Under the pieces are notes generated by a model, which was given only the letters and a program-made list of their open reading frames with translations, did not search any database and had not been told where the DNA came from. DNA of 25,168 nt from a virus, in IMG/VR virus record IMGVR_UViG_3300046004_000811, positions 1 through 25,168 of that record; one strand, given 5' to 3'. This document shows, piece by piece, positions 1-23,265 of the stretch (its first letter is position 1; each line of letters starts with the position of its first letter). The translations under genes were made by a program, and so were the position numbers.

Positions 1-1644
1 TTCTAAATTTATTGCTTTAGCTGCTTCATCATAGTGTTTGACTACAATTCCCATCACATTCGGCATACTATCAAGAATAGACTTAAACTCTTGACCTCGC
101 ACAGTAACGCCACCTAACGCTTGTTCTAACTGCAATAAACCACCTCTAACAGCATTAGGACTTGTACCCATGATAGCAAGTGATTTCGTCACAGTGTCAA
201 TCATATTAACAGTATCACCCTGTGACATATTTAATGACTCAGCCGCACGCGACATTCTTAAATACAACGTAGTGATAGAATCTAATGGAGCGCGAGCATC
301 GACAGCAAGTTTAAACAATCTTTCTTGCATACCAGCCGCATTACCTGTCTTTTCAGTAGCGATACCGACTGCGTTGGTAAAATGTGTCCATTGGTCAGCA
401 TATTCCATAATCTGACGACCTGACATCGCCACACCGACCATCATTAAGGTTTGTTGGAGTTTGTTTAGACTGTTTGAGAGTTCGTTGATAACTGATGTTT
501 GATTGCTTGAACCTGTTTGGCGACTTTGTGCAATTAACTGTTGTTGGCGATAAGCTAGGTTATCTGCTTCTTGTCTACGAATTTCAGCTTCCATTCTAGC
601 TGAATCTGAAAATCTAGTTTGATTTTGAACATTAACACTTCCCATTTGAGAAGTCATTGGAGAATTAGGATTTAATCTCGGTGGAACGTAGGTAGATGAT
701 TGTGACATTGCAGCGGTCATAGCGTGCGTATGAGCAATTTTATCTGCTAAAATAGCGGCATCAATTTCTTTTAATGTTTGTCTTTGCGCTCTCCATGCCG
801 CTAATTCACGATTCATGTCAATCGAAATTGCTTCTTCATGTGCAGTATTATATGCCCTTTGGTCAGCAAGTTGTTTATCTTGTCTAGCTTTTTCTTCATT
901 CATGTATTTAACATGAATTTCGCCTAACTTATTGTAATGTTCTTTTACTTGTCTTTCAACGTCCAAATAACCTTGTAGTTGTTTTTGCCATTCTGCATAA
1001 TTAACACCATCAGACGCTCTTGTTGTCGCAACCATAGGTCTATCTGTAGCCATTTTATTCAACGATTGATTATTATGTCCAGCTTCAGCTATACCTTTTT
1101 GTAACTCTTTACTTATGTTTCTTGATAGCTCAATTATTTTATCTTCTGCTAATTTAGTATTGATATTCAAAGAAACCATAATTTCTTTTCTTGAAATATC
1201 TAACAAACTGCTTTTCATTCTCTCAGCAGCTTTTTCAACGATAGCGACTTGTTCATTACTAGCTTGTTGAATCACAGATGTTGCTTTTTTACTTCCTTCG
1301 GTCACGGAGTTAGAAAACGCTTTACCTAAACCATCAATCTTACCGCTTAGATTATTGATAGCTGTTTCAATACCTTTAAACGCTTCCATATCAACAGACA
1401 TCTTCATTGGTTTTTCAATCTGACCTCGTGCTTGCGCTAAGGTCTGTTGAATTTTACTCATTGAAGGGTCAATTGAGCTAGTATCAAATCTAACCGTGAT
1501 ATTTTCAACTCGTTTCAGCGTAGCATATAAGGTGTCTAATGCCGAAGCAGTTGTGGTCGCTTTCTTGCCTAAATTTTCAATGGTATTGGTTGCATTGTTA
1601 TCGGTAACTTTTAACTCAATACTAACGCTATTTTCTTCTGACAT
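1..1644 (-). CDS. Tape measure protein, N-terminal part (gene runs off the window)
   Basis: The reading frame is open from an ATG at 1644 to the window edge (548 codons, no stop), so the 3' end is missing. AAGGAATT sits just before the ATG. Tape measure proteins set tail length and fill the tail tube. Two things support the call. The first ~380 residues are helical, Gln/Lys/Glu-rich and coiled-coil-like. Around residues 400-545 there is a classic tape-measure N-terminal domain: helices with the pattern YADQWTHFTNAVG, then LYLRMSRAAESLNMS, then QLEQALGGVTVRGQEFKSIL, followed by a proline-containing turn (MPNVMG). This R/L-G-x-E-F segment is typical of the family. It lies directly after the two chaperone genes, the expected position. 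The identification is strong; total length cannot be judged. Confidence 0.9.
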   Translation of the reverse strand, partial: MSEENSVSIELKVTDNNATNTIENLGKKATTTASALDTLYATLKRVENITVRFDTSSIDPSMSKIQQTLAQARGQIEKPMKMSVDMEAFKGIETAINNLSGKIDGLGKAFSNSVTEGSKKATSVIQQASNEQVAIVEKAAERMKSSLLDISRKEIMVSLNINTKLAEDKIIELSRNISKELQKGIAEAGHNNQSLNKMATDRPMVATTRASDGVNYAEWQKQLQGYLDVERQVKEHYNKLGEIHVKYMNEEKARQDKQLADQRAYNTAHEEAISIDMNRELAAWRAQRQTLKEIDAAILADKIAHTHAMTAAMSQSSTYVPPRLNPNSPMTSQMGSVNVQNQTRFSDSARMEAEIRRQEADNLAYRQQQLIAQSRQTGSSNQTSVINELSNSLNKLQQTLMMVGVAMSGRQIMEYADQWTHFTNAVGIATEKTGNAAGMQERLFKLAVDARAPLDSITTLYLRMSRAAESLNMSQGDTVNMIDTVTKSLAIMGTSPNAVRGGLLQLEQALGGVTVRGQEFKSILDSMPNVMGIVVKHYDEAAKAINLE

Positions 1645-1653
1645 TTTAATTCC

Positions 1654-2370
1654 TTATTCTGATGTTTCGGTTTCTGATTGTTTATTGTAATGCTCTAAAA
1701 ATACCCTATCTAACATCTTAATAACTCGTGTTTCATAAGGTGATAATTTATTCCCTGTTAATGTACACCATGACACAATTTCTGTGTAACTAATCGCATT
1801 TACACCCATTCCTGATTGACGTGTTGAATTCAAATCTAATATGAATTCCCACAGATATGTAACACAATTAGACACAGTAACAGGTTCTAACATCGGGTCT
1901 TTGATATTGTGATTGGTAAGTAATGATTCTAACGACTCTCTAAGCGTAGAACCGTCTTTTTGTTTAGCTGACAGTTCTAACTCACGTTTAGCGAATTCTA
2001 TAAGCTCATTAATCATATCGTCTAGCTTCTGAGCTAACTCATTCGATACACGAAGTACCTGATGTCTAATGTAAGGATTAGTTGCACACAGAGTATTAGC
2101 GTTACCTTGAGTGCAGGGTTCTTCAATACCATCCCAATTGACAATTCGTGTTGTGGCGGCTAGTATTTCAAGTTCTGTTTCATTCAATGTAGAATAACCA
2201 TTCTGAAACTCAGCCATACGCTGTGATAAGATAAGTTTTGATTTTAATGCAGAAGATGTTTGTTCGGCATGAGCAGATGTCACAGTGATAAATAGACCTA
2301 TCCCTTTACCTGTTAATTCTGAGGTAACTTCAAACACATAAGGCGTTTCGTCAATAGGGAGTAATTTCAT
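1654..2370 (-). CDS. Tail assembly chaperone, long (GT-like) paralogue
   Basis: A 238-residue protein that looks like the long form of a tail assembly chaperone, which coats the tape measure during tail polymerisation. Residues 8-105 align with the short chaperone encoded at 2548-2943. Both have a D/ETPY start, and RIVNWDGIEE (75-84) matches RIVGWKGIEE, followed by a shared T..NA.TL..TNP.IR pattern. Residues ~106-238 form an extra helical C-terminal domain (YLWEFILDLNSTR, then SYTEIVSW, then a terminal LDRVFLEHY helix) resembling gpT-type extensions. In most long-tailed phages this form arises by ribosomal frameshifting from the short gene; here it is a separate gene with its own promoter at 2400-2428. 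There is no clear Shine-Dalgarno sequence before the ATG at 2370, which may keep its level low. It lies 9 bp before the tape measure start. Confidence 0.75.
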   Translation of the reverse strand: MKLLPIDETPYVFEVTSELTGKGIGLFITVTSAHAEQTSSALKSKLILSQRMAEFQNGYSTLNETELEILAATTRIVNWDGIEEPCTQGNANTLCATNPYIRHQVLRVSNELAQKLDDMINELIEFAKRELELSAKQKDGSTLRESLESLLTNHNIKDPMLEPVTVSNCVTYLWEFILDLNSTRQSGMGVNAISYTEIVSWCTLTGNKLSPYETRVIKMLDRVFLEHYNKQSETETSE

Positions 2371-2399
2371 AAATAATCGGACATGAATTTGGTTCGATT

Positions 2400-2428
2400 A
2401 TTATTTCATAAATACTTGTGAAAGTCAA
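2400..2428 (-). promoter_or_regulatory. Sigma70-type promoter for the long chaperone and tape measure genes
   Basis: On the minus strand TTGACT (2423-2428) is followed after 17 bp by AATAAT (2400-2405). An 8-bp inverted repeat AATAATCG / CGATTATT (2372-2379 and 2395-2402) overlaps the -10 box and reaches the start codon region. It could be an operator or an mRNA hairpin that limits initiation. Confidence 0.6.
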
Positions 2429-2447
2429 GTGTTATAAGAATAAATAA

Positions 2448-2472
2448 AAACCCGATGGTTTAGGTCGGGTTT
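2448..2472 (-). terminator. Intrinsic terminator, second of a tandem pair
   Basis: An 8-bp stem AAACCCGA / TCGGGTTT with a 9-nt loop, followed on the minus strand by TTATTTATT. It lies between the short chaperone gene and the promoter of the long one, so the two chaperones are largely separate transcription units. Confidence 0.8.
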
Positions 2473-2492
2473 AGGAATTTCTAAATAAAAGA

Positions 2493-2525
2493 AAACCCTG
2501 TCAACAATTAAATTCGACAGAGTTT
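2493..2525 (-). terminator. Intrinsic terminator after the short chaperone gene
   Basis: On the minus strand AAACTCTGTC pairs with GACAGGGTTT (one mismatch) around a 13-nt loop, followed by TCTTTTA. It sits 23 bp downstream of the stop codon of the short chaperone. Confidence 0.7.
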
Positions 2526-2547
2526 GCCTTTTTCTATGGAGATAGAA

Positions 2548-2943
2548 TTACTTTGTGAAGTTAGCTACATTTCCACTAGCCTGCATAATTTGTTCACGGA
2601 TAGTTGGATTAGTTCTAACTAACGTCAGTGCATTTTCAGGAGTGAAATCTTCTTCGATTCCTTTCCAACCAACGATACGTTTTGCAGCTAATTCAAAACC
2701 AAACAACAAATCATCTTCTACTTTATCAGCAGGAGCGTCTTTACCTTTTTTAGCAGCGATTCGAGCTGCTTCACGTTTACCATTTACCGCTTTCGCAATC
2801 AAATCAGCGATAACTTTACTGTGTTCACCGATAATATCAATTTCAATACCAGTCGCTTGACCAGATTGTTCGTCGATAATTGATAAAGTGTAAGGTGTGT
2901 CTGATGCTTTTTCTACGTTTAATGAACTTAATGAAATTGCCAT
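2548..2943 (-). CDS. Tail assembly chaperone, short (G-like) form
   Basis: A 131-residue acidic/basic helical protein at the position of gpG-type chaperones, between tail tube and tape measure. Chaperones of this class bind the tape measure and recruit tail tube subunits. The start ATG at 2943 (MAISLSS) is preserved after GTGGAGATATACAAT, giving a GGAG ribosome binding site; an in-frame GTG five codons upstream overlaps that site and is unlikely. Residues 89-119 (RIVGWKGIEEDFTPENA onward to NPTIREQ) are shared with the long paralogue at 1654-2370. It ends shortly after this motif, followed by two terminators, and I see no slippery heptamer at its 3' end. The family call rests on context plus the paralogy, so it is likely but not certain. 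Confidence 0.75.
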   Translation of the reverse strand: MAISLSSLNVEKASDTPYTLSIIDEQSGQATGIEIDIIGEHSKVIADLIAKAVNGKREAARIAAKKGKDAPADKVEDDLLFGFELAAKRIVGWKGIEEDFTPENALTLVRTNPTIREQIMQASGNVANFTK

Positions 2944-2999
2944 ATTGTATATCTCCACTATTTATGTTAAAATTTAATTGCACAATTGCAATACGCGCG

Positions 3000-3028
3000 A
3001 TACTATCATGATATGCGTCTGTTGTCAA
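3000..3028 (-). promoter_or_regulatory. Sigma70-type promoter for the short tail chaperone
   Basis: CTTGACAA with the -35 hexamer at 3023-3028, a 17-bp spacer and TAGTAT at 3000-3005. The upstream 16 nt including the -35 box are identical to those at the capsid promoter (12890-12895). Confidence 0.75.
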
Positions 3029-3093: not shown

Positions 3094-3636
3094 ATGATTG
3101 AACCTACACCGTTGCCGTCGCATGAGATTTTACACAGTAGGCTGCATTATAATTCAGAAACAGGTGATTTAATTTGGAAAGACCGAGATGTTAGTTCGTG
3201 CAAACGAGAACAAGATGCTAGATGTTGGAATAAGAAGTATTCAGGCACTATCGCAGGTGTTGATAATCACGGACATTTACGATTACAGATTGATGGAATT
3301 AAGTATTTCAATCACAGAATAGTGTGGAAAATGGTCACTGGTAAAGACCCTGAATTTGAAATAGACCATATAAATTTAGACAGAAAAGACAACCGATTTG
3401 CTAATTTACGAGATACCGATTCAAGTCAAAATGCTAGAAATAAACAAACGAGCTGTAGAAACACAAGTGGTTTTAAAGGGGTTGATTTTAAGAAGAACAG
3501 TGGTAAATGGCGAGCTAGAATTAGAGTTAATGGTGTTCAGACTTGTTTAGGTATTTTTAATACCGCAGAAGAAGCAGCGCAAGCCTATATAAACGCTGTT
3601 GAACCATATCATGGTGAATTTGGTAGGATTAAGTGA
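3094..3636 (+). CDS. HNH/AP2 homing-type endonuclease, single module
   Basis: A 180-residue free-standing endonuclease of the HNH/AP2 group. HNH nucleases nick or cut DNA at one metal-bound active site, and the AP2 domain gives site binding. Visible parts: a leader LPSHEILHSRLHYNSETG (7-24) shared with the other AP2 nucleases in this window, an NHRIVWKM helix with the first His at 74, DHINLDRKDNRFANLR (91-106) with His92 and the Asn pair, and an AP2 domain at ~124-175 (SGFKGVDF, KWRARI, LGIFNTAEEAAQAY). It starts at an ATG with TAGGAG 9 bp upstream. It is the only plus-strand gene, wedged between tail tube and chaperone, with its own promoter and a shared terminator. This is how a recently inserted selfish gene would look. 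Confidence 0.88.
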   Translation: MIEPTPLPSHEILHSRLHYNSETGDLIWKDRDVSSCKREQDARCWNKKYSGTIAGVDNHGHLRLQIDGIKYFNHRIVWKMVTGKDPEFEIDHINLDRKDNRFANLRDTDSSQNARNKQTSCRNTSGFKGVDFKKNSGKWRARIRVNGVQTCLGIFNTAEEAAQAYINAVEPYHGEFGRIK

Positions 3637-3694: not shown

Positions 3695-5509
3695 CTACAG
3701 TGCAGAATCTTGAATTTGGATAGTCGTTTCTTCAAAATTTGTAACGCCTAGCGATTTCGAGTACAATAAAGCACTAAATGGCATAGTCATAATCAAACCG
3801 CGTTCGCCGTCGTCCTTTGATGCACCAGTGAATTTAACTTTAGGTAATACCACAGACATAAAGTTACCGTTTGCATCACTATCAGCACGGAATACAGCAA
3901 TGATAGATACTTCGTCTTGATTCAAGAATGAATCGCGGTATTTAGCATCAATGAAGTAAATAGAGCTGTTACCTGTTACGTCAACTGCACCAACAAAGAT
4001 GTCAGGTGATGTGTCAGAACCTACCACAGAAGCAGTAGAACCGTTACCGTTCACAGTTAAGTCAAAAGAAGTCAACAAACCTACTTTTTCAAGTACACTT
4101 GTTAAACCTTTTTTGTTTTTAATGTATAACGCGCCTGTCGTAGCAGAAATTACACTGTCAGTACCTGAAGCAGTCGGGTTAGCTAATTGCTGAACCTGTG
4201 TTGCCTTCATACCAGTTCCCATGAAAGTGAAATCTGATGTAGCCATTGCAGACGGACTTAATTTCAACGCCATTTGTGTTACACGACAACCACTGAATAC
4301 TTCAGATTCACCGATGTCACTGTACCAATGTTCAATTGAGTATGAATCTTTTGTGTGACCTGTTTTAGGCACATAGGTTTTCATACCTTTAACTGTGATG
4401 TTCGGCGTAATCGTCAAACCTGTTAAAGCGATGTTAGCTGTAAAGTTATCTTTCAATAAATCCAACACGATTTTAGTTGCGGTGTTTTCAATCAAGATAA
4501 AGTTATAGTTATTAAACGCATCCAATGTTCCAGGGTGTCCCCAGTTAGTCACAAATACCACATCGCCGACTTTCAATGTAGCGGTGGTATCAGTCGAAGT
4601 CGTTAATGTTAAACGAGCAGTATCTTTTGACGCGCCAGCGGCAGAAATAGATACGGTAGATGCAGTAGCGCCCGTTGTGAAATCTCTACGCAATGTAGAT
4701 TGGATGAAGTCCGCGTAGGTGCGATTGGACAACTCCCCGTTAATCGTACCATCTACCGTATTCGCTCCTACAGATACATCGGACCTTTGTTGGTCACTAC
4801 GAATCTCGTTAGATTTGAATGTTGATTTTTTCAAGTCTAAGTTACTGGTTACACGGCGTAAATACTTAGGTGTGATTGAAGTCACGAATGTGATTGCGGC
4901 TGTCGCAGGGCTTGTGACCAATACAGGATATACTGTCAAACCTGTAGTTGCAGTACCTGATGAAGTCGATGCTGTCACAATGTAAGAATAACCGCCGATT
5001 GTTAAGCGTTGACCAACAGGAATCAAACCTGTAGCAAAAGAACCTACTGTCACGGTAGCCGAACCAGCAGAACCTGTAGCAGTTGCTGTAGTAGCAGATG
5101 TCGGAGCTTGACCGATAGTAGGTGAAGCCGCTGTGCTAATTAAGAATTCTTCTGTACTGTTAAGCACAGTTACTTTTGCACCAGCTACATAGTTATTCAA
5201 CGCTTTCGCATCACCCGCAACTAACGATACGACCGTAGCAACAGTTGTGTTACCGCCCGAGTTAGTTGTAACAGCCGTGATTTTATATTTATCAGAACCA
5301 ATTTGGAATAATTGACCAACTGCCAATAAACCTGTTACAGTAACGTTTGTACCGATAACTAAATTACTACCTTGAGCAATTCCTGTTGATACCGCTAATG
5401 TTGCAGGAGAGGTTAAACCTTCACCCGCCAAATCTTGAACTTTTCCCAATTCAAACTCTTTAGCGTAGCTAAGTTGTTTGAAAATACCATTTGCAATTGA
5501 AATTGCCAT
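3695..5509 (-). CDS. Tail tube (major tail) protein with a large N-terminal insertion
   Basis: A 604-residue protein, twice the size of ordinary tail tube subunits, which polymerise into the channel around the tape measure. The family signature is clear: IANGIFKQLSYAKEFELG at the N-terminus, then KYLRRVTSNLDLKKSTFKSNEIR (215-237) and VDGTINGELSNRTYADFIQ (252-270), as in siphovirus tubes of the Phage_tube_2 type. In relatives the first two segments are nearly adjacent. Here ~190 residues (about 24-214, positions ~4868-5440) separate them. That insert is rich in Thr, Ala, Ser and Val and contains two related copies (55-82 and 152-182) of a pattern like VTV..L..VGQ...IG...Y.ITA, probably small beta-sandwich domains exposed on the tail. 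GAGGAATTAAATT precedes the ATG. It is the last gene of the operon starting at 8314. Confidence 0.85.
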   Translation of the reverse strand: MAISIANGIFKQLSYAKEFELGKVQDLAGEGLTSPATLAVSTGIAQGSNLVIGTNVTVTGLLAVGQLFQIGSDKYKITAVTTNSGGNTTVATVVSLVAGDAKALNNYVAGAKVTVLNSTEEFLISTAASPTIGQAPTSATTATATGSAGSATVTVGSFATGLIPVGQRLTIGGYSYIVTASTSSGTATTGLTVYPVLVTSPATAAITFVTSITPKYLRRVTSNLDLKKSTFKSNEIRSDQQRSDVSVGANTVDGTINGELSNRTYADFIQSTLRRDFTTGATASTVSISAAGASKDTARLTLTTSTDTTATLKVGDVVFVTNWGHPGTLDAFNNYNFILIENTATKIVLDLLKDNFTANIALTGLTITPNITVKGMKTYVPKTGHTKDSYSIEHWYSDIGESEVFSGCRVTQMALKLSPSAMATSDFTFMGTGMKATQVQQLANPTASGTDSVISATTGALYIKNKKGLTSVLEKVGLLTSFDLTVNGNGSTASVVGSDTSPDIFVGAVDVTGNSSIYFIDAKYRDSFLNQDEVSIIAVFRADSDANGNFMSVVLPKVKFTGASKDDGERGLIMTMPFSALLYSKSLGVTNFEETTIQIQDSAL

Positions 5510-5530: not shown

Positions 5531-5941
5531 TTAAGTAAAAATATCTGCTGTAAAGAAAATCCTTACAACTACTACAAATCGGTCTACCTCATTAGGTAAT
5601 ACTCGAATGTCTGGTGTTTTATCGCACAAAACTCTGCGATTATCTTTTGTTAAAATAGTTCCAATTTTAAACGCTGTGCGGATTTTCTCTGCTTGTGTCA
5701 TAATTGCAACCGTTCCGTTTCCTAATGGATAACGAAGTGTTATTTGAAAAATCCCTTTTTCTCGATACATTACTGAATCTGCAACGGTTGTATCTTCTGG
5801 TGAATTCATAAGTAAATACGCAGATTGATACGGTACATTTGTAACGGGTGTAAATGTCACGTTTTCAAATTGAGTTGACACTTTTGGTGTGAGGGTTGCG
5901 AGTTTAGTTTCTAATGCAGAACGAATTGATATTTGACTCAT
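5531..5941 (-). CDS. Tail terminator protein (minor tail, DUF4128-like)
   Basis: A 136-residue protein whose start overlaps the preceding gene by ATGA. It resembles tail terminator proteins, which cap the tail tube and join it to the head: N-terminal helix (IRSALETKLATL), then FTPVTNVPYQSAYLLMNSPEDTT (the proline-flanked strand typical of DUF4128 and gpU-like folds), YREKGIFQITLRYPLGNG (85-100), a helix with AEKIRTAFK, and C-terminal strands ending FVVVVRIFF. Position between an HK97 gp10-like gene and the tail tube fits exactly. The function is inferred from context and fold-level pattern, not from catalytic motifs. Confidence 0.7.
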   Translation of the reverse strand: MSQISIRSALETKLATLTPKVSTQFENVTFTPVTNVPYQSAYLLMNSPEDTTVADSVMYREKGIFQITLRYPLGNGTVAIMTQAEKIRTAFKIGTILTKDNRRVLCDKTPDIRVLPNEVDRFVVVVRIFFTADIFT

Positions 5942-13117: not shown

Positions 13118-13600
13118 TTACTGTGATATTAGCTTAGGATTATACCTGATATAACCTTCTTGTTGTAAACCTTTACTTCTAAGTATTCTCAAAATTGCGT
13201 TTGTTGTAAAACCATGACCCTTTCGAGCCTTATACCCTAAACTTTCCAATTTTCTCTTAATAGTCTCCGAACCACAATGTAAGGAAACTTTTAATTCGCA
13301 TATTTTATTGATTACCTCTTGTTCGTCTGGATTATCAATAAGTGTTTTACCACCATCTACCCGCATTTTCCCGTAGGGAACTTGTCCGCCAGATAACTTT
13401 CCTTCTTTCCTTAATTCTTCCCTCTTAATAGCTCCTAATTTTATTAGCGAATTATCAACGTTGTGTATTTTTTCATGGCAATCTATACATAGGGTTATCA
13501 TATTAGACACCCTATTACTACCTCCGCGCGATTTTGGTACGAGATGGTGATGTTGTAAGTTTTCAGTAAGTCCACAAGCTACACAATACTTATGTTTCAT
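13118..13600 (-). CDS. HNH endonuclease fused to a serine-recombinase-type DNA-binding region
   Basis: A 160-residue two-part protein. Residues 1-50 are a compact zinc-binding HNH nuclease: CVAC (6-9), HHHLVPKSRGGSNRVSNM (17-34) and CIDCHEKIH (38-46). Residues ~64-145 match the 'Recombinase' linker domain that follows the catalytic part of large serine recombinases: KLSGGQVPYGKM, LIDNPDEQEVINKI, a G-S-x-x-x-I helix, LGYKARKGHGFTTNAILRIL. In recombinases this region binds the attachment site after GxxPYGY and wraps with W/F..x..I..IL. No serine recombinase catalytic domain is present. I infer a homing-type nuclease that borrowed a recombinase DNA reader. ATG at 13600; GAGAAA is a weak ribosome binding site. 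It follows a second, unrelated HNH gene. Confidence 0.78.
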   Translation of the reverse strand: MKHKYCVACGLTENLQHHHLVPKSRGGSNRVSNMITLCIDCHEKIHNVDNSLIKLGAIKREELRKEGKLSGGQVPYGKMRVDGGKTLIDNPDEQEVINKICELKVSLHCGSETIKRKLESLGYKARKGHGFTTNAILRILRSKGLQQEGYIRYNPKLISQ

Positions 13601-13671: not shown

Positions 13672-14103
13672 TTAAACAAAATCTGGAAATAATTTCTGAG
13701 ATGCAGCAACTCTTTCCAAATGAGTTTTAACGTCGCAAGTTTTTAAATTTAACATTGCGTATAAGTTTGCCCCAGACAAAATGAATCTTTGATATACAAC
13801 GTCCATAAAACTTCTTTCATAAAACCACTCCCAATAAGAATCTCCATAGAAATACTCAGACGCTTTATGGCAATAACTACACAAACAATGTAGATTACTA
13901 ACATCGTTACTACCGCCTTTGCACAGTGGTTGAATATGCGCCCTTTCTAGCTTGTGACCATAATCCATTCCGCAAGCGAAGCATACATTCATATCTAAAA
14001 ATTCACATTTACTATCAAAACCTTTAGCTACAATATCTAAATTATTCTGCCAGTAATTCCTAATCACACTCTCTGATGGCATATCAGCTCTATTATTACT
14101 CAT
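13672..14103 (-). CDS. HNH endonuclease, zinc-binding type
   Basis: A 143-residue HNH nuclease. The metal-binding CFAC (41-44) is followed by HIQPLCKGGSNDVSNLHCLCSYCHK (56-80), giving the catalytic His, the GGSNDVSNL loop with its Asn, and the second CxxCH. N-terminal 40 residues (ESVIRNYWQNNLDIVAKGFDSKCEFLD) and C-terminal ~60 residues (WEWFYERSFMDVVYQRF) are specific extensions with no family I can name. The ATG at 14103 has CTGGAG upstream. It shares a unit with the KilA-N gene. It may be a selfish nuclease or contribute to DNA handling; no packaging-type link to the terminase is evident. Confidence 0.85.
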   Translation of the reverse strand: MSNNRADMPSESVIRNYWQNNLDIVAKGFDSKCEFLDMNVCFACGMDYGHKLERAHIQPLCKGGSNDVSNLHCLCSYCHKASEYFYGDSYWEWFYERSFMDVVYQRFILSGANLYAMLNLKTCDVKTHLERVAASQKLFPDFV

Positions 14104-14160: not shown

Positions 14161-14937
14161 TTATTTCAAATTAGGAATAGCGTCAACTACATCTTGGTAC
14201 CAACGTAGTTGTTTTACTGGTGTTCTGCCGTTAGCTTTGTCAACGTCTACCATTTCTGAATAAGGTTTACCTTTCTCAGTAGCTTCCCATTTACCTAAGA
14301 CGCTTTCTTGAAAGCCGTGCGTTTGCAATAACAAATTAAACGCGCGTGCTTTGATGCCTAAAGGTTCACCTAATTGTGTCACAGTGAATGTTTGTTTAGG
14401 TACATCACAAGTTAGCATTTTAATGTCCATGATAGCCATTGGAGATTCACCTAAGCGTCGAGTAATCGCCTTATCAGCAGACAATAATGCTTGATTGCCA
14501 GATAAGCCAAACAAATTTGCTAATTTAATAGCAGCTTCTGTTTCATTAACGATAACTGATAAGTCAGATTTTTTGATGATGATAGATTCACCTTTCAATA
14601 GAGAGTCGATTTGCATATCACACCAAACAGCAAAATCTGGATTTAACCATCTTGCAAATACAATTGCTAATTTTGGATGTAACCAAGTACCTTGTTCATC
14701 AATAACACCACCTTTTCTAACAAGTACCAAATCGGATTCTGTCGATGGGATAATACGCCCATCGGAATTTAAATGCTTAGTCAATGCGGTGATATATTCT
14801 TTTGATGAATCGGTTTTAAGAAAATCTTTTGGGACTTTACCAAACGCTTTAGCAATTTGCGTAGCATTGATATAAGCATCGTCAGATTGAAAGATTACTG
14901 GAATTTCGTTGTATTGGAGTGTTACTAATTTTGTCAT
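14161..14937 (-). CDS. KilA-N domain protein (antirepressor-like)
   Basis: A 258-residue protein with a KilA-N domain. The start MTKLV at 14937 is chosen because AAGGAATC lies just before it; an upstream ATG in frame lacks a site and sits in the leader. Residues 21-40 (AYINATQIAKAFGKVPKDFL) and 80-110 (DEQGTWLHPKLAIVFARWLNPDFAVWC) are the diagnostic KilA-N motifs. The C-terminal half has a helix-turn-helix-like region with TVTQLGEPLGIKARAFNLLLQTHGF, ending RWYQDVVDAI, as in phage antirepressors. KilA-N proteins bind DNA and regulate phage or host genes. Here it stands inside the head module with its own promoter, so it is probably an accessory gene. Target unknown. Confidence 0.88.
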   Translation of the reverse strand: MTKLVTLQYNEIPVIFQSDDAYINATQIAKAFGKVPKDFLKTDSSKEYITALTKHLNSDGRIIPSTESDLVLVRKGGVIDEQGTWLHPKLAIVFARWLNPDFAVWCDMQIDSLLKGESIIIKKSDLSVIVNETEAAIKLANLFGLSGNQALLSADKAITRRLGESPMAIMDIKMLTCDVPKQTFTVTQLGEPLGIKARAFNLLLQTHGFQESVLGKWEATEKGKPYSEMVDVDKANGRTPVKQLRWYQDVVDAIPNLK

Positions 14938-14954
14938 TTTGATTCCTTTATGGA

Positions 14955-14992
14955 GGCGGCTCTCAGAGCGTTGAAATATAAACGCAACCGCC
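14955..14992 (-). promoter_or_regulatory. Leader hairpin before the KilA-N gene
   Basis: The minus-strand RNA reads GGCGG, TT, GCGTT, loop, AACGC, then 8 nt and CCGCC. Two 5-bp stems with a bulge form a GC-rich hairpin just upstream of the ribosome binding site. A role in translation control is possible. Confidence 0.45.
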
Positions 14993-15044
14993 AAAACATA
15001 AGGTTTTTGATATTTCTATTCAGTGCTGAGACACTATGTTGATA

Positions 15045-16399: not shown

Positions 16400-16428
16400 A
16401 TACTAGCATACATTATAGCTATTGTCAA
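16400..16428 (-). promoter_or_regulatory. Sigma70-type promoter for scaffold and Tad2 genes
   Basis: CTTGACAA with -35 at 16423-16428, a 17-bp spacer ending in TGC (extended -10) and TAGTAT at 16400-16405. It decides the scaffold start: any ATG upstream of about 16393 is not transcribed. Confidence 0.8.
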
Positions 16429-18477: not shown

Positions 18478-20457
18478 TTATGACAAACCTACCGTTTTAC
18501 CAGAACGTGCGCCTGTGGCGGTGGAGAGGATTAGGTAGCGAATTTCATCTGCTGCGTGGTCATTTGAGTTGGTATCTAAATCATCAGGGTTTTTAGGACA
18601 TCTTGGTAATGATGGGAAAATTTCTATAAAATGTCTACAGTTGCTAAAAACAAACAGCCCTGCATATTCTCTAACTCCACCTAACGGCTTAACTGCGTTT
18701 GCTAAATGTCGCCTAATAGCTTCCCAGCCAGCAACCCTAGAACCAGATGCTTTATCTGACCTAGTCCATGTTATACCTGGAACAACTTTGTTATCGTCCA
18801 ATCGAATAGGTTTCATCATAGACGCGGCAATACTATTACCGTTGTCCATTGTCCAAATAGCATTATCTGCTGCACCAGGAACAACCCTGTGGTAAATACC
18901 CATTTCAATTTCACGTTCAACGATACCTTTTGCAATATCAGCAGCAAGCATTTTTAAACCGACATTATATTTACCTTCTTCACATCCTAACCATTCTGCT
19001 ATTCTGAAAATATCACCGCGCACAGTGCTTATCACTCTACCGTCATGTAATTCAACATCACTACCATCAGAAATAGCGTGCCACCCAACAGAGAATGGTT
19101 TGCTACTACCATAATCAAAATTTCTAGTAATTTTCCATGATGACGGGATTGAAAAAGGTTTTACCACATGGGCATCATATTGCCATAAATCATCAAACAT
19201 TCCACCTTCAGAATACCCATCCCAATCACCTAATAACCAAGCTCTGCGTTTAAAAGGGTCTGTGATAGCGTGAAGATCAGCCACATATTGCGGGTCGAGT
19301 TTTGAATTTTCTCGCCAAGATGAAAATATCCAACATTGCGTCTTAGTGATAATTTCATCTTTTTGGGTTCTTGGATTAAAAACTTTAATTTCAGTTTTTA
19401 AAATTTCACCAGGAGCAGACTTGTCAATGAAGCGGGACTTAACCCAATTTCGCCCGATCCCAGATGGATTTGTACTCGGCATGATAATGAGCGGTAATTG
19501 AGGCAATAAGCTACCGTCTGGTAGCGGATGGTCTTCGGGTACAAAACTACTTCGATTAAGACTCATTACAGCGTCAAATACGTCAGGTGTGGCGTGCTTT
19601 GTTAATTCGTTAGGTGAGATGAAGCAGTTTTTAGAAATTAGCCGAGTAGTAGGATTGATATAACAATTAACATCTTCCACCGTAATGTCAATTGTAGGAT
19701 GTATTCCACAGGGTAGAACCTGAATATAACCGTAATCAAATTTAAAGTCTGTGTGTACAGCATCCGATGTTTTATAAGGGTGTAAAAACCAATCGTTTCC
19801 AATAGTATCACTTATTAACGCAACTGTTTGTTTGTTTTTAGCCTTCTGAAAACCCCTGCTTCTATAAGTTAGAAGTTTGTGGTCGGTAGATTGAATTTGA
19901 TGCCCAATTATATTATTTTGCTTATCGAATACATAAATTGCGTTACATTCTTTTTCTTGTGTGGGAAAAATCTTAGTTATAGCCTTATATCCAACAGGTG
20001 TTAAAATTTTATCACCTAAAACGACATTTTGTATTTCAATTAAACCTTTATTTTCAATATCTACTAGACTATGACAAGCTACACAGAATTCACTACCATG
20101 TAGCTTATTGTAATCATCCATATTACTAATAGCTCTAAATAAAATTTCTTCTCCTCCAGGGAACTGCCATTTTAAATCGCCTTTCGAGCTGAGGAATTTT
20201 GCACCATCTTTAAATTGTGGAAAATATCGTTTAGATTTACTTATCAAATCCTCTAATGATGATGTTTGAGTATCGTAAAATAAGGCACGGAAATATCTTC
20301 CGTAGCCAATTCCAATAAATTTTCTTGCCGCCATCAGAGTAACGTCACTTTTACCTGACCCCCTGGAACCAGCCAAAAGCGTAATGTTAGCTGGGCAATT
20401 CATGGCGAGAGTTTGCGACCCTGGTTGGGGACTCCATACAATAGGTCTATTATCCAT
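18478..20457 (-). CDS. terL: Terminase large subunit with an in-frame mini-intein
   Basis: The DNA-packaging motor, 659 residues including a 153-residue intein (exteins 506, normal for the family). Walker A is GSRGSGKS at 30-37. KLHGSEF (118-124) would join CFISPNELT (278-286) after splicing, rebuilding the usual HGxEFxFIxxxEL segment with the probable Walker B carboxylate. A coupling motif STNPSGIGRNWVKSRF follows at ~328. The nuclease domain has NFDYGSSKPFSVGW (Asp448), an Asp at 507 and the NDHAADEIRYL end motif (Asp633, Asp637), which cuts concatemers at the end of filling. The ATG at 20457 overlaps the upstream nuclease gene's stop; a TTG at 20475 is an alternative start. Loss of splicing would abolish packaging, so the intein is presumably active. 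Confidence 0.92.
   Translation of the reverse strand: MDNRPIVWSPQPGSQTLAMNCPANITLLAGSRGSGKSDVTLMAARKFIGIGYGRYFRALFYDTQTSSLEDLISKSKRYFPQFKDGAKFLSSKGDLKWQFPGGEEILFRAISNMDDYNKLHGSEFCVACHSLVDIENKGLIEIQNVVLGDKILTPVGYKAITKIFPTQEKECNAIYVFDKQNNIIGHQIQSTDHKLLTYRSRGFQKAKNKQTVALISDTIGNDWFLHPYKTSDAVHTDFKFDYGYIQVLPCGIHPTIDITVEDVNCYINPTTRLISKNCFISPNELTKHATPDVFDAVMSLNRSSFVPEDHPLPDGSLLPQLPLIIMPSTNPSGIGRNWVKSRFIDKSAPGEILKTEIKVFNPRTQKDEIITKTQCWIFSSWRENSKLDPQYVADLHAITDPFKRRAWLLGDWDGYSEGGMFDDLWQYDAHVVKPFSIPSSWKITRNFDYGSSKPFSVGWHAISDGSDVELHDGRVISTVRGDIFRIAEWLGCEEGKYNVGLKMLAADIAKGIVEREIEMGIYHRVVPGAADNAIWTMDNGNSIAASMMKPIRLDDNKVVPGITWTRSDKASGSRVAGWEAIRRHLANAVKPLGGVREYAGLFVFSNCRHFIEIFPSLPRCPKNPDDLDTNSNDHAADEIRYLILSTATGARSGKTVGLS
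19627..20085 (-). other. Mini-intein within the terminase (residues 125-277)
   Basis: A 153-residue Hint-type insertion. Block A starts at the first Cys: CVACHSLVDIENKGLIEIQN then VVLGDKILTPVG. Block B is QSTDHKLLTY with the His. Block F is TIDITVEDVNCYI, and block G is LISKN followed by Cys as the first C-extein residue. All splice motifs are present, but the usual penultimate His is Lys. There is no homing endonuclease domain between blocks B and F. Boundaries were set by the joined extein GSEF + CFISPNEL, which restores the terminase motif exactly. Confidence 0.9.
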
Positions 20458-21535
20458 GATTAGCGTATTCACCAAAGTATTCGTTAGCGGCTTTACAATA
20501 GGCTTCGTGAGCTTCTTGTTCTGTTTTATATTGACCTAAACATTTACGTTTTCCATTTATAACTATACCAGCTCTCCACTTACCACGTTGTTTGTCAAAA
20601 GAGCAACCTTTTAATTTATCGGAATTGTTTTTACTATTCATTCCATTTTGACTTACACTTACCAATCTTAAATTACACCAACGATTATCATGGCGTACTC
20701 CGTTCATGTGGTCAACTTTTAAATGTAAAGGTATCTCCTCGCCCGTATGTAGCCAATAGATAACTCTCTGTAACACTTTTATTTTTCCTGAAACAGTGAC
20801 GTATAAATAACCGTCTTCTTTTTTAAATATTATTTCATTACCAGCGTATCTAGTATTCCATCTACGCATAATACCCACATCCTTAAAATGACTAATCGGA
20901 CGTTCTTTCCACTTAACAATTCCAGTTTCAGGGTTATAGTCGAAACATTCGTTTATGTTTTCAGATGTTAATTCAAATTCTGATTTTTTAACAATCTTAG
21001 TTTCTAAATGTGACCAATCTTTAGTTTCTGCTTCTTTACGGGCTTTTATTGCGTCTTCTTTGTTTTTAAATGTGCCTAGATAAACTCCGTTTCCTCTTAT
21101 GTTAAACATCGATTGCCAAGCGTCAGAATCTTTAACATACGAAACTCCTTTACAACCAGATTTATTATCACTTGGTATTTTTCTATTGTGTTGATTTTCA
21201 CTTTCAGTAACATCGCGCAAATTACTAAATTTATTATCAAACCCATCTCCATTTATGTGGTCAATCTGTCCAATAGGGTCTTCACCAGTCATTAGTTTCC
21301 ATATAACGCGATGTGTTGCAGTGGTAATTTCCCCTATAGTTGTTCTATAGTATTTACCGTTGGCTTGTTTAGCTGCCGATAAACCTTTTAACCGATTATT
21401 CCAAGTATCTGTATAAGACTGATTTTTAAAATGCTCTAATGGTCGCTCCTTCCATAGCAATTCACCTGTTTCTGGAAAGTATGAAAAACATTCATTAAGA
21501 TACTGTTGTGAAGGTAGTTGTTTTGGTTTTGTCAT
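20450..21535 (-). CDS. Double HNH/AP2 homing-type endonuclease overlapping the terminase
   Basis: A 361-residue protein made of two tandem copies of an HNH/AP2 module. Each copy has a leader of the type ECFxYxPETGxxxWKERP, an HNH core and an AP2 DNA-binding domain. Copy 1: His75 (HRVIWKLMTG), QIDHINGDGFDNKFSNLR at ~91-108, AP2 ~126-170. Copy 2: Gln256 replaces the first His (QRVIYWL), then VDHMNGVRHDNRWCNLR and AP2 ~307-351; its catalysis may be weak. The start at 21535 (MTKPKQLPS) has AGAGGTC upstream; an earlier ATG has none. Its stop codon overlaps the terminase start. Next to an endonuclease-free intein in that very gene, it is a candidate partner that drives the intein's spread. Confidence 0.85.
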   Translation of the reverse strand: MTKPKQLPSQQYLNECFSYFPETGELLWKERPLEHFKNQSYTDTWNNRLKGLSAAKQANGKYYRTTIGEITTATHRVIWKLMTGEDPIGQIDHINGDGFDNKFSNLRDVTESENQHNRKIPSDNKSGCKGVSYVKDSDAWQSMFNIRGNGVYLGTFKNKEDAIKARKEAETKDWSHLETKIVKKSEFELTSENINECFDYNPETGIVKWKERPISHFKDVGIMRRWNTRYAGNEIIFKKEDGYLYVTVSGKIKVLQRVIYWLHTGEEIPLHLKVDHMNGVRHDNRWCNLRLVSVSQNGMNSKNNSDKLKGCSFDKQRGKWRAGIVINGKRKCLGQYKTEQEAHEAYCKAANEYFGEYANHG

Positions 21536-21590
21536 GTTAGACCTCTGAGTTAGATATTTTTGAGTCATTAAAAGTTAATGATGGAACGCA

Positions 21591-22242: not shown

Positions 22243-23265
22243 TTATTTTCTAGCATATTCACCATGATAGAGTTCTTCGGCTGCTTTACGGGCGGAGATG
22301 GCTTCTTCCTTGGTGGAGAATGTGCCTAATCTAATTCGGTTTTTATTTACCGTTATTCTAGCTAACCAATTATCGTTCCTTTTAATATAATCAACTCCTC
22401 TTAATTCATTTGTACTTTTTACATTGTATCCATTCTCAACCCTAGTCACCAATCTTAAATTCTCATAACGATTATCAGATGGGTTGTTATTTATATGGTC
22501 AATTATATCACCTTTTAAAGGTTCTTCACCTGAATTAAACCAGTAAATCAATCGGTGTACTTGAAACGCCTTATTATTTATCTGACATGTTATATATTTG
22601 TCAGGACGCATTGTACCTACTTTTTTACCACTGTTTATTTTAAATAAATGTCCATTTTCATAATAATAATTTGATTTTAAATATTCGAATGTCATCACGA
22701 AAATAGAATTATTTTTTGATTTAGCTTCGGCGTAAACATCTTTATTATTTTGCAACCATTCCTCTCTAAGACAAATAGCTTCTTCTTTTGAATTACATTC
22801 ACCAGATGTTTTATTTCTGTTAATTGCCGCAGAATACTGCCATTTCTTTCTGTTAGTATCATATCGAATACCTTTAATACCACTCTTATTATTGGATTGA
22901 TTTTTCTTATTCATCATATTTTCAGAATGTGTAACATCTCTTAGATTTTCGATACAATTATTTGATTTATCATTATCAATATGGTCAATACTACCAATAG
23001 GTTCATTACCTGTCATCATTTTCCAAATCAGTCGATGTGAAAGGTATCTAGTATTGAGAACATATATTCGGGTATATCCGCTAATATGAATAGTACCAGC
23101 TACATTGCCAGCAGTTGTGCCATTGAAAATATTCATCCCAGTTGCATTTTTAAAATGATGAATAGGTCTTTCTTTCCATATTAAAATACCTGTTTCAGCA
23201 TCATAATCGAAACATTCTTTTAAATATTCTTGGGATGGTAGTAGTTTTGGTTTTTGGCTTGACAT
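22243..23265 (-). CDS. Double HNH/AP2 homing-type endonuclease
   Basis: A 340-residue protein with the same two-module plan as the nuclease at 20450-21535. Copy 1: leader LPSQEYLKECFDYDAETG, His77 (HRLIWKMMTG), SIDHIDNDKSNNCIENLR (92-109), AP2 ~126-175. Copy 2: a shortened leader, His237 (HRLIYWF), IIDHINNNPSDNRYENLR (254-271), AP2 ~286-335 (LRGVDYI, WLARI, RLGTFSTKEEAISARKAAE). Both HNH cores keep the key His and Asn residues, so both may be active. AAAAGGAATC lies before the ATG. It sits between a phosphoesterase and a small acidic gene with its own promoter, which suits a mobile insert. Its natural target site cannot be read from the window. Confidence 0.85.
   Translation of the reverse strand: MSSQKPKLLPSQEYLKECFDYDAETGILIWKERPIHHFKNATGMNIFNGTTAGNVAGTIHISGYTRIYVLNTRYLSHRLIWKMMTGNEPIGSIDHIDNDKSNNCIENLRDVTHSENMMNKKNQSNNKSGIKGIRYDTNRKKWQYSAAINRNKTSGECNSKEEAICLREEWLQNNKDVYAEAKSKNNSIFVMTFEYLKSNYYYENGHLFKINSGKKVGTMRPDKYITCQINNKAFQVHRLIYWFNSGEEPLKGDIIDHINNNPSDNRYENLRLVTRVENGYNVKSTNELRGVDYIKRNDNWLARITVNKNRIRLGTFSTKEEAISARKAAEELYHGEYARK

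Follow-up and report, generated by a model that had tools for sequence, protein, structure and literature searches.

The window analysed here is the whole of a 25,168-base IMG/VR virus record, IMGVR_UViG_3300046004_000811, a fragment of an uncultured virus whose minus strand encodes the head and tail proteins of a long-tailed phage. In the direction of transcription, the tail terminator gene is followed by the tail tube gene, a short gene that we call G, a long gene that we call G'T and the tape measure gene. The features of this region, with their positions in the window, are the following.

5531-5941, minus strand: tail terminator gene (PF13554)
3695-5509, minus strand: tail tube protein gene, upstream of G (PF18906, 8e-20)
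3094-3636, plus strand: HNH/AP2 homing-type gene, antisense, between the tube gene and G (domain matches)
3000-3028, minus strand: promoter-like site upstream of G, TTGACA-17-TAGTAT with an extended -10 (promoter scan)
2953-2956, minus strand: Shine-Dalgarno sequence GGAG of G (-6.4 kcal/mol)
2548-2943, minus strand: G, short tail assembly chaperone of 131 amino acids, a stand-alone gene (PF08748, phrog_313)
2486-2525, minus strand: intrinsic terminator-like stem-loop after G, AAACTCTGTCGA..TTGACAGGGTTTTCTTTT (RNA folding)
2442-2472, minus strand: second terminator-like stem-loop, AAACCCGACCTAAACCATCGGGTTTTTATTT (RNA folding)
2400-2428, minus strand: sigma-70-like promoter of G'T, TTGACT-17-AATAAT with an extended -10 (TGA); expected transcription start at about 2393
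2372-2402, no strand assigned: inverted repeat AATAATCG (2402-2395) and CGATTATT (2379-2372) around the expected transcription start (sequence)
1654-2370, minus strand: G'T, long tail assembly chaperone of 238 amino acids, between the tail tube and tape measure genes, with a G-paralogous N-half (about residues 1-116) and an in-frame T domain (PF23812, phrog_313)
1-1644, minus strand: tape measure protein gene, next after G'T and cut by the window end (PF20155, 2.9e-29)

The HNH/AP2 gene upstream of G is one of five HNH endonuclease genes in these 25 kb (3094-3636 (+), 13118-13600, 13672-14103, 20450-21568 and 22243-23265 (-)), two of which are built as double units, each combining two HNH_3 domains with one AP2 domain. 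The large terminase frame (18478-20475, minus strand) seems to contain a mini-intein-like insert running from CHSLVDIENKGLIEIQNVVLGDKILT.. to ..LISKNC; terminase profiles match on both sides of this insert, and the match to a Hint domain is weak (Vint, E 0.14). A KilA-N gene lies at 14161-14994.

The short and long proteins are paralogous tail assembly chaperones

The profile comparison to chaperone families that the original prediction had suggested as a check gave matches for both proteins. G matches phrog_313 ('Tail assembly chaperone', 1.4e-12) and PF08748 (Phage_TAC_4) at 22.5 bits, above the curated cut-off of 21.1. In G'T, residues 11-118 match phrog_313 (2.5e-5) and residues 170-226 match PF23812 (Phage_TAC_18, the T domain) with an E value of 1.8e-13. 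With G as query against its own record, the long gene was found at E 3e-12 and 34% identity, and hhalign of G against G'T, using five sequences per side, gave a probability of 99.3% and an E value of 4e-20 over residues 6-116 of the long protein. The view that these are two separate paralogous genes on the minus strand thus holds, the homology being well beyond chance. In one of the relatives described below, L007, the long protein alone passes the Pfam cut-off for both PF08748 and the T family.

Predicted structures of G and of the N-half of G'T share the order of their structural elements. Among 379 chains in VIA, the one that best matched the G model was 2ob9, the HK97 tail assembly chaperone, with a modest Z score (5.0; rmsd 5.4, 99 residues aligned). 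Foldseek gave no significant match in the PDB for either the G or the G'T model; in BFVD the top matches of the G'T model were phage 'tape measure chaperone' and 'tail assembly chaperone' proteins. VIA matches of the T half of G'T to prion, Bcl-2 and similar chains (Z 3-5) were taken as chance helical matches.

Relatives encode G and T in different reading frames

Programmed frameshifting of tail chaperone genes belongs to the most conserved recoding events of phages, and its usual explanation is that a fixed ratio of the two products is needed. The production of tail chaperones in two forms through a frameshift is the classical arrangement (PMC5009743); in lambda, GT is made from one gene by a -1 frameshift, with a G:GT ratio of about 30:1 (Xu, Hendrix and Duda 2004; reviewed in PMC5009743). 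The window resembles lambda in that a short chaperone is accompanied by a longer form with the same N-domain plus a T domain, both encoded between the tail tube and tape measure genes. It differs in having two genes and no slippery site, in place of one gene and a frameshift.

To survey relatives we ran G-domain and T-domain HMMs over all fetched loci. The two-gene layout, in which one G stands by itself and another G domain shares its frame with T, was found in the window and 22 more IMG/VR contigs, all of them uncultured and some of the loci being repeats of one contig. These fall into eight two-gene lineages: the window, L005, L007, L008, L012, the L022-L039 group, L035 and L073. The possibility that the pair reflects chance resemblance or an artefact of assembly or annotation is extremely improbable: nothing speaks for it beyond the fragmentary nature of the contigs, and it is opposed by the 22 more contigs from many data sets, by the hhalign result and by the purifying selection that acts on both genes (dN/dS 0.03-0.24; 0.23 for G between the window and L005).

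Loci beyond the two-gene clade have a single G and a T in another frame. These number 37 distinct loci, among them all cultured phages in which both domains were found. The HMM runs show that the T domain of G'T is homologous to the separate-frame T of these relatives, which include L079 (IMGVR_UViG_3300042894_002769), Synechococcus phage Ssp-JY42, Limnohabitans phage DC31 (L001), Pasteurella phage Pm86 and Caulobacter phage DMCA. They share with the window homologous G and T domains and, where the locus shows it, the order tube-G-T-tape measure, but in these phages T directly follows G in the other frame and is reached via a frameshift (-1; +1 in DC31). In L079 the gene order is as in the window and the tube protein is 38% identical over 632 columns. 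Over the whole set the T frame is -1 in nearly all loci and +1 in DC31 and Curvibacter phage P26059A (L116); in one contig, L072, T is broken. The two +1 loci have no heptamer, and consequently a different shift mechanism is likely in that pair, where both G genes end near AAC TTT CGA. Of note, several GenBank phages (L001, L002, L004, L116 and others) carry a T domain that has no annotation or is covered in part by a hypothetical protein.

When the long proteins were compared by tblastn with 50,697 phage records, no one-piece match over most of the query was among the matches listed; the good matches came as two pieces, G and then T. No relative turned up when the alignment of the long proteins was used to scan GTDB genome contigs. 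Bacillus phage G gp181/gp182 was considered as a second two-gene case and set aside, gp182 being annotated as a join of two pieces.

The two-gene clade has lost the slippery site and keeps the register of the shift

An in-frame X XXY YYZ heptamer lies at the end of G in 31 of the 37 distinct frameshift-type loci, and 24 of the 31 have A AAT TTT at the codons of a conserved xNF motif. The heptamer is missing from that place in all two-gene lineages, and no T frame follows their G. Five of them keep NF, encoded by a T-ending codon, AAC or AAT, and TTC, so that no heptamer is formed. The window reads GCT AAC TTC at this place, its G gene ending ..GCT AAC TTC ACA AAG TAA, despite an overall codon use that favours AAT (181:109) and TTT (109:61). 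In agreement with the claim that the short gene has no slippery heptamer, no heptamer of the form X XXY YYZ lies in frame in window G, and neither of the shifted frames stays open as far as the G stop codon. Residual frameshifting in window G is ruled out on these two grounds. Although the G gene of L007 ends TTA AAA AAA TAG, reading on in the shifted frame meets a stop 35 nt beyond the gene's own stop codon, with no T domain in that stretch.

In the long gene, G' and T are fused in precisely the register of a -1 shift. When G'T and the frameshift product are aligned across the junction no gap is needed: L079 reads SDEIKNF followed by YSSLISDLFDFAEKELTLSEKQ and the window reads SNELAQK followed by LDDMINELIEFAKRELELSAKQ.

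Origin of the pair

A G-domain tree was built from 59 different sequences. The G proteins of the two-gene phages form one clade (97/90) and the G' domains another (99/100). Two-gene G has the frameshift-type L079 as its sister (98/91), and in the T tree L079 groups with two-gene T (95/91). Both trees thus place a frameshift phage as sister to the two-gene phages, which makes their arrangement the derived one; it apparently arose once in this sample. The original prediction proposed that duplication has replaced frameshifting and suggested a search for a frameshift version in relatives. Such relatives exist, one of them in this sister position, and together with the loss of the slippery site they support the proposal well.

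An alternative is that recombination brought in the long gene from another phage, one whose GT was already in a single frame, which would leave the present working of the pair unchanged. In its favour, the best G tree places G' just outside two-gene G plus L079, on a long stem (1.16 changes per column), and forcing two-gene G and G' together costs 6 log-likelihood units (p-AU 0.09; 0.33 with L079 included). At this p value, however, a clade of two-gene G and G' is not rejected, so that an origin of G' by duplication in place is compatible with the data. The T domain moreover groups with that of L079, the same sister as G has, and no single-frame G'T that could serve as a source was found outside the two-gene clade in the IMG/VR scans or among the matches listed from the 50,697 phage records. 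We consider acquisition unlikely.

In our preferred reading, the two genes very probably encode the short and long chaperones of a long-tailed phage that descends from a frameshift ancestor, underwent duplication of its G-T unit and now has two transcription units. In this ancestor, ribosomes would have slipped by -1 at an A AAT TTT close to the 3' end of G and so produced GT. The G-T unit would have been duplicated in the ancestor of the clade; one copy would have dropped T and the slippery site to become a plain G gene, and in the other the shift would have been fixed in the DNA, giving a single G'T reading frame.

Two predicted transcription units and a junction that holds accessory genes in relatives

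Two terminators and a new promoter had been proposed between the genes, and both kinds of element were recovered. The two stem-loops in 2442-2525 fold at -27.1 kcal/mol (z -3.8), and none of 200 shuffled sequences was as stable; our terminator pattern scan lists neither because its loop limit is 8. A stem-loop with a T run lies directly 3' of G in all lineages. The G'T promoter (2428-2400 in the window) is conserved as TTGACW-N17-[AC]ATAAT with TGN before the -10 in 10 of 10 loci, representing all eight lineages. Its spacer is 17 in every lineage, the bases between the hexamers vary, and the leader expected between promoter and long gene measures 21-29 nt throughout.

In five lineages (L005, L007, L008, L035 and L073), G and G'T are separated by accessory genes that span 1-2.4 kb (KilA-N, AntA and others without a name), apparently with promoters and terminators of their own. 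The second stem-loop element is found after these accessory genes, just before G'T, in L005 and L035. Since the second terminator of the window matches the one that ends the insert in these two lineages, the window may have lost an accessory gene. The unlinking of GT from G seems to have made the junction a place where accessory genes insert. Promoters with long inverted repeats around the -10, as expected of operators, were seen before G'T in L073 (repeat TTGACATTTAGGTCTAAGT..ACTTAGACCTAAATGTCAA) and after G in L008 and L035.

Under the duplication scenario the present state would comprise a first unit, promoter-G-terminator, in which G is translated from a strong Shine-Dalgarno sequence, and a second unit, promoter-G'T-tape measure, in which G'T starts without one.

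Translation starts and the ratio of the two proteins

The Shine-Dalgarno sequence of G is strong in all eight lineages (-5.3 to -6.4 kcal/mol). G'T is without one in seven of the eight (+0.3 to +2.1 kcal/mol), including the window (+0.3), where its absence had been noted at the outset. L007 has a Shine-Dalgarno sequence on G'T, so the absence is not universal. Among the listed genes of the window, the only ones that score about as badly are those starting at 16409 and 20475, both with doubtful start codons. In the seven lineages without a G'T Shine-Dalgarno sequence, a rough initiation energy favours G by 4.5-6.4 kcal/mol; this would leave much less long protein per mRNA, an effect to which we attach no number.

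The original prediction also invoked an inverted repeat over the start region of the long gene. The repeat is present, but its role as a translation block did not survive. The left arm of the repeat precedes the expected transcription start (about 2393) and would therefore be largely missing from the mRNA, and the RNA folds no better than shuffled sequences (z -0.35); a ribosome-blocking hairpin was rejected on these grounds. The repeat also varies between lineages, with related but changed arms in L005, L008 and L035 and none seen in L022 and L007. Near G'T, a change in one arm is matched by a change in the other from lineage to lineage (TTAGAC/GTCTAA, CTAGAC/GTCTAG). A DNA operator is as likely a role for this repeat as anything.

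Given the absence of a G'T Shine-Dalgarno sequence in seven of eight lineages and the strong one on G in all of them, it is plausible that a weak translation start on G'T sets the ratio; weak initiation would then keep G'T scarce. Promoter strength is another possible cause. We tentatively put forward the broader idea that this lineage swapped recoding for gene duplication, the ratio now being set by a purpose-weakened start, with selection for the absence of the Shine-Dalgarno sequence, and the long gene being separately transcribed.

It is somewhat unlikely that the ratio is instead set mainly by transcription, that is by promoters of unlike strength together with the terminator that ends G, and not by the missing Shine-Dalgarno sequence. 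All eight lineages do have a terminator after G and a separate G'T promoter, and the inverted repeat extends into this promoter, a placement that would suit an operator. Against this, the G'T promoter is near consensus with an extended -10 and hence not obviously weak, the tape measure gene lies directly downstream of G'T, and the Shine-Dalgarno contrast is consistent across lineages.

By analogy with lambda, G' and G would bind the tape measure protein and T would bring in the tube protein. The long protein might alternatively have diverged to a new role, for example that of an initiator which has ceased to intermingle with G on the tape measure protein, and would then not be equivalent to GT of lambda. 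Identity between G' and G is just 34%, about 10 residues at the N terminus of G have no counterpart in the long protein, and in most of the lineage pairs compared the long protein shows the faster evolution. However, its structural elements come in the same order as in G, the register of the frameshift product is exactly kept, the gene holds the same place before the tape measure gene and both of its parts are conserved, which makes a new role quite improbable.

Comparison with other two-gene chaperones and significance

Separate short and long chaperone genes have been described before. According to the account in PMC10885494, which cites Vladimirov, Gautam and Davidson 2022 (doi 10.1016/j.virol.2021.11.003), some T4-like phages have a short chaperone gene and a separate long fusion gene. 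As described there, this pair is like the one in the window in that the long gene is the short part fused with a downstream part and no frameshift is involved. The T4-likes are contractile-tailed myophages; the window clade, compared here with that description, belongs to another group, with PF08748/PF23812-type chaperones and a frameshift-type sister. In Microbacterium phages of EA subclusters other than EA3-EA6, two chaperone ORFs appear to be separately expressed (PMC7302621); unlike in the window, paralogy of the two ORFs is not mentioned in the passage that describes them. We found no report in the literature of separate paralogous G and GT genes in the phage group of the window. As short and long genes are already reported for T4-likes, the window clade represents a new and apparently independent variant. 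What is new is an independent-looking case in another phage group that combines a frameshift-type sister, an erased slippery site, a conserved promoter and a missing Shine-Dalgarno sequence.

For annotation, these results carry a warning: the T part goes unannotated or hypothetical in several frameshift relatives, and in the two-gene phages no frameshift should be predicted. The frameshift and two-gene clades are closely matched, so that one can ask whether the frameshift itself or just the ratio matters, and also how a virus escapes an obligatory recoding event. They form a natural before-and-after pair for how the short:long ratio is set. If the swap of recoding for gene duplication is real, it would have made the boundary between G and GT available to incoming accessory genes and freed G and G' to specialise.
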